Assembly: GCF_947495275.1 (NCBI RefSeq)
Contig: NZ_CANLYL010000003.1
Location: forward strand, 186,001-250,000
Direction of reading: 5' to 3'
Length of the DNA: 64,000 nucleotides
Source of the DNA: an uncultured Roseobacter sp.
Lineage (GTDB): Bacteria > Pseudomonadota > Alphaproteobacteria > Rhodobacterales > Rhodobacteraceae
Below, one piece after another: positions 30,621 through 32,301 of this stretch. The notes under the pieces were generated by a model that did not search any database, was not told the origin of the DNA, and saw nothing but the letters and a program-made list of their open reading frames with translations. The position numbers were made by a program, and so were the translations under genes. Position 1 is the first letter of the stretch; every line of letters begins with the position of its first letter.

Positions 30621-31241
30621 ATGACACGCGCTTACCTTCCCGGCATTCTTGCCATGGCTGCCATTGTGGTTGCCTCCAACATTCTTGTGCAGTTTCTCTT
30701 CGGCCAATGGCTGACCTGGGGGGCTTTCACCTATCCGCTGGCCTTTCTGGTCACGGATGTAATGAACCGTGTCTACGGCGCCTCCGCCGCGCGCCGTGTT
30801 GTATTCGTGGGCTTTGTGGTGGGCATCATTTGTTCGCTTATCGGCACACAGATCATCGGCGAATTCGGCCCGCTTGTGACCCTGCGCATTGCGATAGGCT
30901 CTGGTCTGGCCTTCCTGATCGCGCAACTGATCGACGTATCGGTCTTTGCAGCCCTCAGGGATGGCAAATGGTGGCGCGCGCCGCTGGCCTCAACGCTGAT
31001 CGGCAGCACGCTCGACACCGCCCTTTTCTTCACCATCGCCTTTTCCGCGAGCCTGATGTGGATCGAGCCCGGCAATGACGTGTCCTGGGCCGGTGACATC
31101 CTGCCCCTCCTCGGCTTTGGCCCTGCCGCGCCCTTGTGGGTCTCGCTGGCTGTGGCCGACTGGATGGTCAAACTGTCGCTGGCGCTTCTGGCTCTCATCC
31201 CCTTCCGCGTGATTACAGCCCGGCTCACACCCGCGCATTGA
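30621..31241 (+). CDS. yhhQ: Queuosine precursor transporter (VUT/DUF165 family)
   Basis: A 206-residue inner-membrane protein with about six helices. Family motifs are ASNILVQF in helix 1, TYPLAFLVTDVMNRVYG (about residues 37-53), RIAIGSGLAFLIAQLIDVSVFAALR and STLIGSTLDTALFF. In E. coli the homologue YhhQ takes up the queuosine precursors preQ0 and preQ1 for tRNA modification at position 34. No queuosine synthesis gene is adjacent. An 87-base gap with a weak hairpin (AGGCC/GGCCT) precedes it. Confidence 0.93.
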   Translation: MTRAYLPGILAMAAIVVASNILVQFLFGQWLTWGAFTYPLAFLVTDVMNRVYGASAARRVVFVGFVVGIICSLIGTQIIGEFGPLVTLRIAIGSGLAFLIAQLIDVSVFAALRDGKWWRAPLASTLIGSTLDTALFFTIAFSASLMWIEPGNDVSWAGDILPLLGFGPAAPLWVSLAVADWMVKLSLALLALIPFRVITARLTPAH

Positions 31242-31330
31242 CCCTGCGTTAACGAAAAAAAGCTTGGTGATTTTCGAAACCTGTGCGACGATTCCTGCAA
31301 CGTCAACAGATAGGTAAAGGAGGTGATCCA

Positions 31331-31387
31331 GTGTCAAGAAAGGTATTGGAGCGAGGTGTCGGAACAGCTTTGGAGGTCGCCTGCTGA
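31331..31387 (+). CDS. 18-residue leader peptide or mini-protein
   Basis: A GTG-started ORF with product MSRKVLERGVGTALEVAC. The GGAGG core lies 7 bases upstream, the ideal spacing, within an extended 14-base match to the 16S rRNA tail. The peptide is basic at the front and ends in Ala-Cys. It has no runs of a single amino acid of the kind used by amino-acid attenuators, and is too short for a signal sequence or domain. Coding is supported only by the ribosome site and the intact frame; the act of translation may matter more than the product. Confidence 0.5.
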   Translation: MSRKVLERGVGTALEVAC

Positions 31388-31459
31388 GGCAGCCCTTGAC
31401 GGGCAGAACTCCTGAGTGGATTTCGGTCTAACCGATCCCCCTCCTAAAACCATTCGATT

Positions 31460-31488
31460 GGGCCGCATGTCACCGTGCGGCCCTTTTT
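31460..31488 (+). terminator. Strong intrinsic terminator ahead of the VOC-arfB genes
   Basis: GGGCCGCA at 31460-31467 pairs perfectly with TGCGGCCC at 31476-31483 (8 bp, extended by a G-T and a G-C pair inside the loop), followed by TTTTT. It lies 21 bases before the VOC start codon, which leaves no room for a separate promoter. Confidence 0.88.
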
Positions 31489-31509: not shown

Positions 31510-31869
31510 ATGCCGGAACTCACCAGCCTGATCCTCTACACATCAAAGATCGATGAAACTGTCGCGTTCTATAGCACCCATTTCGGCTATGCGCGGCACG
31601 ACACTGACGGCGACCGCATCGTCGAATTGCGGCCTCCGGGCACCGGTACGCGCTTGCTCCTGCACAAAGCAGCGAAGGGTCAAAGGCAAGGTCAGACCAC
31701 GGTCAAACTGGTGTTCACCGTCGCAGATGTCGAAGCCTTTTGCGCGCAGAGCAAAGAACGCGGCCTGACATTCGGCCCCTTGCACAGCGGCGATGGCTAT
31801 GTTTTTGCCAATGCAAAGGACCCATCAGGCAATTCCGTCAGTGTTTCGGGGCGCTTTTCAACGGAGTAG
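31510..31869 (+). CDS. VOC family (glyoxalase/bleomycin-resistance fold) protein
   Basis: A 119-residue single-domain protein with the vicinal-oxygen-chelate fold: SLILYTSKIDETVAFYSTHF at the start, RIVELRPPGTGTRLLLHKA in the middle, VKLVFTVADVEAFC and a C-terminal YVFANAKDPSGNSVSVSGRF. Such proteins bind a metal at a His/Glu site and include glyoxalases, dioxygenases and antibiotic-binding proteins. The metal ligands are incomplete here (the usual early His is replaced by Tyr in ILYTS), so it may be non-catalytic or use other residues. The ATG at 31510 is preceded by GGGAAAG. arfB follows 9 bases after the stop. Confidence 0.85.
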   Translation: MPELTSLILYTSKIDETVAFYSTHFGYARHDTDGDRIVELRPPGTGTRLLLHKAAKGQRQGQTTVKLVFTVADVEAFCAQSKERGLTFGPLHSGDGYVFANAKDPSGNSVSVSGRFSTE

Positions 31870-31878
31870 GATCGGCGC

Positions 31879-32301
31879 ATGTTGCAGATCAACGATGATA
31901 TCGCACTCCAGGACTGGGAACTGACCGAGAGCTTCATGCGTGCTTCCGGCCCCGGCGGTCAGAACGTGAACAAAGTGTCCTCAGCGGTGGAATTGCGGTT
32001 CGAAGCGGCCCGCTCGCCGTCCTTGCCCGGCCCGGTGAAAACCCGGCTGAAACGTCTGGCCGGGCGCCGCTGGACTACCGATGGCGCGCTGGTTCTGCAA
32101 TGCGATGAGACCCGCAGTCAGGCGCGCAACCGTGATATCGTGCGGACACGTCTGGCGGAACTGATCCGAAAGGCATTGGTTGCCCCCAAGCGACGGATCG
32201 CGACAAAGCCCACGTTAGGGTCGAAAAAGCGGCGTCTCAAAGCCAAGAAAGTGCGTGGAGAGGTCAAGGCAATGCGCGGGCGCGTAGACCCGGAAAACTG
32301 A
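31879..32301 (+). CDS. arfB: Alternative ribosome-rescue factor ArfB (peptidyl-tRNA hydrolase)
   Basis: A 140-residue release-factor-like protein that frees ribosomes stalled at the end of broken messages, independently of tmRNA. The catalytic loop SGPGGQNVNKVSSAVELRF (about residues 23-41) has the essential GGQ, and the basic C-terminal tail (KPTLGSKKRRLKAKKVRGE) fits the part that probes the empty mRNA channel. There is no stop-codon recognition domain, as expected. It forms a pair with the VOC gene and so comes under the control of the upstream leader element, which is interesting because that leader resembles a ribosome-binding decoy. Confidence 0.95.
   Translation: MLQINDDIALQDWELTESFMRASGPGGQNVNKVSSAVELRFEAARSPSLPGPVKTRLKRLAGRRWTTDGALVLQCDETRSQARNRDIVRTRLAELIRKALVAPKRRIATKPTLGSKKRRLKAKKVRGEVKAMRGRVDPEN

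Follow-up and report, generated by a model that had tools for sequence, protein, structure and literature searches.

The 64,000-nt window analysed here (NZ_CANLYL010000003.1, positions 186,001–250,000, forward strand, from an uncultured Roseobacter sp.; all coordinates below are positions in this window) carries, between a transporter gene and the gene pair VOC-arfB, a Shine-Dalgarno sequence (SD) with an unusually long match to the 3' tail of 16S rRNA. It is followed by an ORF of only 18 codons, a segment that mimics the rRNA tail itself, and a terminator. This locus raises the question of whether the arrangement arose by chance, whether it serves the ribosome-rescue gene arfB downstream, or whether it belongs to an RNA with a role of its own. 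The features of the locus are as follows.

30621–31241, plus strand: yhhQ-like queuosine precursor transporter (yhhQ/VUT), upstream of the RNA (PF02592, 5e-29; TIGR00697, 6e-27)
31302–31488, plus strand: predicted autonomous RNA of ~170–185 nt, relative of RF01867 (CC2171) (cmscan and our own family model)
31316–31331, plus strand: SD, 16-nt complement of the 16S rRNA 3' tail, with the conserved core AAAGGAGGTG at 31316–31325
31331–31387, plus strand: 18-codon ORF, GTG start at 31331, TGA stop at 31385–31387, VSRKVLERGVGTALEVAC
31327–31350, plus strand: start-codon hairpin, UCCAGUGUC (31327–31335) with GGUAUUGGA (31342–31350), covering the GTG (MFE, RNAalifold, pair counts)
31358–31362, plus strand: 5' strand of helix H4, GUCGG (codons 10–11), partner CCGAT at 31432–31436 (RNAalifold, pair counts)
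31365–31419, plus strand: arm made of helix H2 (codons 12–15 with ~31408–31419) and the stop-codon hairpin H3 (~31381–31408) (swap test, MFE)
31434–31445, plus strand: internal anti-SD GATCCCCCTCCT, mimic of the 16S tail, pairing with the SD core (pair counts, MFE)
31450–31455, plus strand: CCATTC, candidate 3' strand of helix H1, partner GAAAGG at 31338–31343 (codons 3–5)
31460–31488, plus strand: intrinsic terminator, 10-pair stem at 31460–31483, T5 to 31488 (terminator scan, MFE)
31510–31869, plus strand: VOC/glyoxalase-fold protein, between the RNA and arfB (PF00903, 5e-9)
31879–32301, plus strand: arfB, alternative ribosome-rescue hydrolase (NF006718, 1e-54)

The 5' end of the RNA at 31302 was inferred from a promoter-like stretch that is conserved in relatives. 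A preliminary description of this DNA had drawn attention to a 14-base complement of the 16S tail, AAAGGAGGTGATCC, at 31316–31329; those coordinates were right, and the match proved even longer, at 16 nt (AAAGGAGGTGATCCAG, 31316–31331). The 18-codon GTG ORF that it described was likewise found intact. Its account of the terminator held for the T5 and for the 21 bases between this and the VOC ATG at 31510, and the stem of 8 bp was replaced by one of 10 pairs in the terminator scan.

Distribution of the RNA and its relationship to RF01867

With at most one mismatch, the 18-mer AAAGGAGGTGATCCAGTG was found in 210 of the 295 family genomes searched, once per matching genome, and not at all in the control. 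Of 385 genomes from the class Alphaproteobacteria, 20 contained exact AAAGGAGGTGATCCAGTG (reversed control, 0). A covariance model of the whole RNA, built from 48 sequences, was run on 80 of the 85 family genomes that were negative for the 18-mer and matched 54 of these 80 at E ≤ 1e-3, with E below 1e-10 in 43 cases; the other 26 gave no match at E ≤ 1e-3 under strict filters, some genomes being incomplete. Our own family covariance model R1 scored 148.6 bits on the window locus (L018), which is itself part of that model. Taken alone, the window could also be read as an ordinary strong ribosome site with a short ORF and a complementarity that both arose by chance, and a single sequence without relatives could not exclude such a coincidence. 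However, this reading is contradicted by the conservation and by the covariation described below, and we give it a negligible probability. To judge from its recurrence among these genomes, the pattern is real and conserved.

The preliminary description knew of no element with this layout. That view has to be given up, as a cmscan search placed RF01867 (CC2171) over 31307–31484 with 33.8 bits (E = 2.2e-5). Because this score falls under the gathering cut-off of 75 bits, the window RNA is, on the evidence of the covariance model, a diverged relative of RF01867/CC2171 and is not filed here as a member. Searched against 142 class genomes, the RF01867 model gave a match at E ≤ 1e-3 in 26, five of the 142 passing the 75-bit cut-off, and in 14 control genomes it matched only Caulobacter vibrioides. 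Two RF01867-like matches, one strong and one weak, were observed within a single genome in two cases (G012 and G039).

In Rfam, RF01867 has the type Gene; sRNA. CC2171 was reportedly presented as a Caulobacter sRNA by Landt et al. in 2008. A table in PMC5596092 gives MH_s33 of Mesorhizobium huakuii, assigned to RF01867, a length of 215 nt and what appear to be RNA-seq coordinates. The portions of PMC5596092 and PMC11701678 that name CC2171/RF01867 do not describe an ORF or an SD mask.

Towards the 5' end, the window RNA and RF01867 share the 20-nt block AAAGGAGGUGAUCCAGUGUC without a single difference, and both have a 3' intrinsic terminator and a similar length. They differ in their ORFs, which are of the 18-codon VSRKVLE type in the window and of the VSHCH type in RF01867, and the window RNA, unlike RF01867, has a 3' anti-SD near the terminator. 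The RF01867 consensus contains a long-range helix that joins the codons after the start with the stretch before the terminator; the window counterpart of this helix, H1, has one mismatch.

Four ORF types were observed in the class: VSRKVLE (18 codons), VSHCH (20–26 codons in 74 of 77 ORFs), VSYLKRCHLAGIAR (14 codons) and VSSE...EQPL. Among the matches listed, named records of the VSRKVLE type include Ruegeria, Salipiger, Gemmobacter and Roseobacter, and on this basis we take the family to be Rhodobacteraceae. The exact 20-mer AAAGGAGGTGATCCAGTGTC was found in Bradyrhizobium, Methylobacterium, Bosea, Ancylobacter, Devosia, Brevundimonas, Phenylobacterium and others, among 80 listed of at least 119 stretches. 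We propose that the window RNA represents the Rhodobacteraceae branch of a group of RNAs that extends through the class and is related to RF01867; this is one component of the overall explanation developed below, which we hold, as a whole and not part by part, to have about an even chance.

Two further observations concern the margins of this group. The fourth ORF type (VSSE...VEQPLP at L050, L142 and L220) has GGAGCAGCCTCTGCC near the end of the ORF. In L155 and L181, which are labelled as gammaproteobacterial (record titles SAR92 cluster and Cellvibrionales), an exact AAAGGAGGTGATCCAGTGTC opens a short ORF, and in L155 CCAGTG can pair with the CACTGG that follows, with a terminator-like repeat directly after. 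These are possibly a minimal version outside the Alphaproteobacteria, or possibly mislabelled records.

The Shine-Dalgarno sequence and the 18-codon ORF

AAAGGAGGTGATCC occurs as a single copy in the genome of the window, a 60-contig assembly in which neither the GGCTGGATCACCTCCTTT pattern nor a reverse-strand match of this 14-mer was found. We counted the complement as 16 nt, not 14, because two of the 19 same-genus genomes searched carry GGCTGGATCACCTCCTTT. The preliminary description had called the SD far longer than usual. A long SD is present, but conservation does not extend over its full 14 bases. All 30 diverged relatives keep the core AAAGGAGGTG and the GATCC after it varies (GCTTC, GCTCT, GCCC, etc.). 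With the core kept while the rest changes, the extra complement is therefore not the selected trait, and a 14- to 16-nt complement as the feature under selection was ruled out. The same observation weighs on the idea that the RNA is a ribosome decoy whose long complement of the 16S tail traps 30S subunits. A decoy would suit a complement that reaches 16 nt in the window, as well as the many relatives that carry the 18-mer unchanged, but it does not suit the changes outside the core in diverged relatives, nor an RNA that appears to hide its own SD, and we consider it very unlikely.

At 86 of the 93 family loci the ORF is exactly 18 codons long, and the stop codons of all 93 are TGA (38), TAG (32) and TAA (23). 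By script, 18 codons were also counted in 23 of 30 diverged relatives, whose starts were scored as GTG (21), TTG (5) and ATG (4), counts in which L247 was wrongly anchored and L271 was scored as GTG with 15 codons although by eye it has ATG and 13. The spacer between SD and start in these relatives is 6–8 nt, except in two rows that the script mis-anchored. In the family loci the N-terminal half of the peptide, V-S-x-x-x-L-E-R-G-V-G-T, is conserved, and over codons 13–18 the residues vary while the position of the stop is constant. Several codons are near-invariant among the 86 loci (AGA at codon 3 in 79, TTG at codon 6 in 77, GTC at codon 10 in 75, and ACA at codon 12 in 80). The peptides of related ORF types have little in common beyond VS.

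Judged by these patterns, the ORF is under selection. Since the stop position is held and some sites keep a single codon, translation of a set length appears to be retained, and part of the constraint looks to act at the level of the RNA. An alternative is that the RNA is a mini-mRNA for a functional 18-residue micropeptide and that its fold merely sets the dose. The conserved ORF, the frame and mostly the length of which survive changes of the spacer, would follow from this, as would the conserved N-terminal half, and given the conserved codons 3, 6, 10 and 12 the first half of the peptide may have a role. However, codons 13–18 vary freely, several conserved sites keep one codon, as an RNA constraint predicts, and the related types share so little past VS. 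On the first two of these grounds we lowered our estimate of the peptide as the sole product, and we regard the micropeptide reading as unlikely.

Promoter and terminator

Of 118 family loci, 74 have TTGAC between −65 and −38, 73 of these within −52 to −48, compared with no more than 9 after shuffling; a conserved ACACAAAATCTGTG-CA--CT stretch comes after it. A sigma-70 scan of the window gave no hit. A terminator was found in 66 of the 67 loci scanned. Bounded in this way, the RNA would be an autonomous unit, a point that falls under the same evenly balanced estimate as the rest of the explanation, with which it was judged jointly.

Conservation was also observed in the promoter spacer (TTGACA-ACACAAAATCTGTG-CA--CT), ~48–52 bases before the SD (e.g., L023 and L033), and exceeds what sigma-70 needs. 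This spacer is possibly a regulator site or the mark of an unusual promoter class.

Fold of the RNA

Folding of the window RNA gave z = −3.2 against 200 dinucleotide shuffles, none of which was equally stable, and in the MFE structure AGGAGG pairs with CCTCCT. When 118 family sequences were folded by partition function, GGAGG paired with the anti-SD segment at a probability of at least 0.9 in 89 and at least 0.5 in 103 (mean 0.85). For 15 of the 118 the SD core:anti-SD probability was below 0.5, and it was near 0 in some (L106, L115 and L077); the folded stretch here reaches +190, beyond the terminator. In a shorter fold of 59 of these sequences, the mean unpaired value of the SD was 0.13. An anti-SD-like motif was scored in 92 of 93 family loci (missing in L050) by a loose script pattern, which alone admitted L017 and L066 (as CTGCCTT) and which misplaced L069.

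From 48 sequences RNAalifold returned, unprompted, four helices: SD:anti-SD, the start hairpin UCCAG:UUGGA, H4 (GUCGG:CYGRC) and the terminator. In a model alignment of 100 sequences, which is fitted to the very structure on which it was scored, 97.1% of cells pair, compared with 92.3% when shuffled and at most 61% when slid. The SD:anti-SD helix is paired in 99.0% of cells, and its changes are one-sided only, the SD side hardly varying. The start hairpin (5 pairs in RNAalifold) is paired in 95.5% of cells, with two-sided changes in three of its five pairs, and H4, which is absent from the window's own MFE structure, is paired in 94.5%, with two-sided changes in three of four. In the terminator, two-sided changes were seen among relatives in all 10 pairs.

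We also compared, for 118 sequences, the duplex energy of each strand with its own and with swapped partners. None of 40 swaps was as good as the natural pairing for H2 (z −15.1), H3 (z −12.6) or SD:anti-SD (z −3.3); H4 gave z −3.2, and the start hairpin was weak (z −2.1). H1 reached z −1.8 in the family, with two of 40 swaps as good, and z −6.0 in the VSHCH type. Control pairs gave z values of +0.9, −0.5 and +3.0, and both the swap and the shuffle controls leave the relatedness of the sequences in. H2 and H1 were judged by this alignment-free test only, as the model alignment has H2 in two registers and H1 unaligned. H1 shows sequence variants and one covarying pair and is weak in the window; alongside the SD lock it would make a pseudoknot. 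Mutual information was used for single pairs only, because terminator pairs ranked near the top but so did clade signatures that do not pair, and the top-ranking pair forms in 7% of sequences. Four of 122 rows were left out of that calculation (L031, L036, L046 and L089), as were, earlier, two of 124 in which no anti-SD was found (L017 and L066); a further eight loci had been skipped beforehand, six for ORF length and two as duplicates.

The preliminary description had proposed that the anti-SD at 31434–31445 forms 10 bp with the SD segment. The site and its pairing with the SD core are borne out, but the GATC:GATC part of the proposed helix competes with the start hairpin and with the family helix GUCGG:CYGRC, so the conserved lock consists of the SD core and the anti-SD. 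It had also asked whether the SD/anti-SD pairing, the ORF and the terminator are conserved together; in the family they are. The free RNA appears to keep its SD hidden by an internal mimic of the 16S tail. A different partner for the anti-SD, GAGGU at codons 8–9, was considered and rejected by eye, as the pairing looks disrupted in those clades whose codon 9 is TGT or CGT.

Other ORF types appear to realise the lock differently, the SD finding its partner elsewhere. In all 11 Bradyrhizobium-type loci the SD pairs mainly with a segment of the ORF, and the GTG is in a paired state as well. In the VSHCH type, CTGGATC (as in the 16S tail) is present in 19 of 77 ORFs, whereas codon-shuffled sets had 0.99 on average and never more than 5; CTGG is present in 75 of 77, a count without a chance rate. 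The SD-to-ORF duplex energy in this type is −15.9 kcal/mol compared with −12.1 kcal/mol for shuffled sequences. In a plain fold the VSHCH SD is partly open (mean unpaired 0.34, n = 78), and a lock there would therefore need a pseudoknot.

arfB and the neighbouring genes

The RNA is preceded by yhhQ at 87 of the 93 family loci and followed by arfB at 81 (by cluster; 79 by motif); further out, a phytase-like gene is present in 77 and an SDR gene in 69. Twelve loci have no arfB within ~1.5 kb downstream, or 11 if L050, which is of another ORF type, is omitted. The arfB motif was found on neither strand in any of 93 loci of the VSHCH, Bradyrhizobium or VSSE types, of which 15 have less than 1 kb and 52 less than 2.6 kb of downstream sequence and one, L050, comes from a family genome. 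The largest cluster of neighbours at these other-type loci spans 21 of 93, which favours an autonomous RNA. An arfB frame lying at least 554 bases after the SD is seen in only three of the 81 arfB-bearing family loci, the window (L018), L027 and L104. By script, the median distance between terminator and arfB is 42 nt (taken over the 97 loci where it is below 400 nt, of 110 with arfB found), and so read-through into arfB stays possible; in the window, such read-through would possibly extend into VOC-arfB.

The claim that the element exists for arfB is not supported by these counts. On gene order, the arfB neighbourhood follows the general arrangement and arfB is not singled out; with yhhQ equally constant and arfB not found at the other types in the stretches examined, we lowered the case for an arfB-specific role. 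A specific form of this claim is a cis attenuator, in which translation or the state of the ribosome alters terminator read-through into VOC-arfB and so tunes ribosome rescue. It would draw on the presence of arfB in most family loci and on the short gap, which at ~2–16 nt in some loci leaves scant room for a promoter of its own. It is opposed by the constancy of yhhQ and by the loci without arfB, within the stretches examined, in the family and among the other types. Furthermore, the terminator is strong and local, and the candidate antiterminator GGCAGCCC, located after the stop codon, fits the stop hairpin better by eye and was rejected, as variants keep this hairpin with changing stem letters. 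We consider an attenuator of arfB to be quite unlikely.

At five loci (L026, L029, L053, L067 and L070), the script placed arfB ~2–16 nt past the terminator, and no clear SD was seen by eye before arfB. A leaderless arfB, or read-through, would fit these starts.

Proposed mechanism and significance

The explanation we favour, with a confidence that stands midway between belief and doubt, is that the RNA is an autonomous riboregulator that is translated, masks its own SD and is gated by the binding of ribosomes; its output is an inference. In the free RNA, the SD would be held by the internal mimic of the 16S tail, leaving the RNA locked. To initiate, a 30S subunit would have to swap this mimic for its own 16S tail. 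What matters about the ORF would be that it is translated, more than the C-terminal part of its peptide, and the translating ribosome would open the fold, freeing the anti-SD and the 3' strand. The freed 3' strand may act in trans, for example on the SDs of other mRNAs, or may set the stability of the RNA.

A broader and more tentative version is that the RNA is a class-wide sensor of free, initiation-competent 30S subunits, and so of translation capacity, in which only a genuine 16S tail could displace the internal copy, reading of the ORF would release the anti-SD onto other mRNAs and a self-competing mimic of the 16S tail would be realised in at least three designs across the groups. We view this as a possibility worth entertaining, short of an expectation.

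An sRNA filed in Rfam from Caulobacter thus has relatives in the majority of the genomes sampled from one family, and also in several orders of the class. It carries a tiny ORF that is under selection, and a copy of the 16S tail apparently locks the start of this ORF. This anatomy bears on whether bacteria use such RNAs to gauge the availability of ribosomes.

Comparison with known systems

The riboregulator proposed here resembles three known kinds of RNA in part. The rnTrpL RNA of Sinorhizobium, as described in part of PMC10117765, is a short RNA with a tiny translated ORF that is leaderless and tied to trpE. Leader-peptide attenuators and released sRNAs of this type share with the window RNA the combination of a short RNA and a tiny ORF, but the window RNA has a very strong SD that is covered by a lock, and across the class it was not found with any one downstream gene throughout.

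Small RNAs with CCUCCUCCC loops go by the name cuckoo-type. Such aSD-loop sRNAs (the SmelA075/RS0680a type) occur in Rhizobiales and Rhodobacter, according to the relevant part of PMC3927594. They and the window RNA both carry a CCUCC anti-SD, but in the window RNA the anti-SD has its partner in the SD of the same molecule and an ORF is present. CCUCCUCCC is absent from the window; GATCCCCCTCCT is found instead, as the strand of a stem (in the MFE structure and RNAalifold) and not as a loop.

Masking of an SD by pairing is also the principle of RNA thermometers and SD-sequestering riboswitches, where it is usually found ahead of a long gene. The window RNA has such a mask in common with them, but the ORF that it gates is 18 codons long and has a terminator after it.
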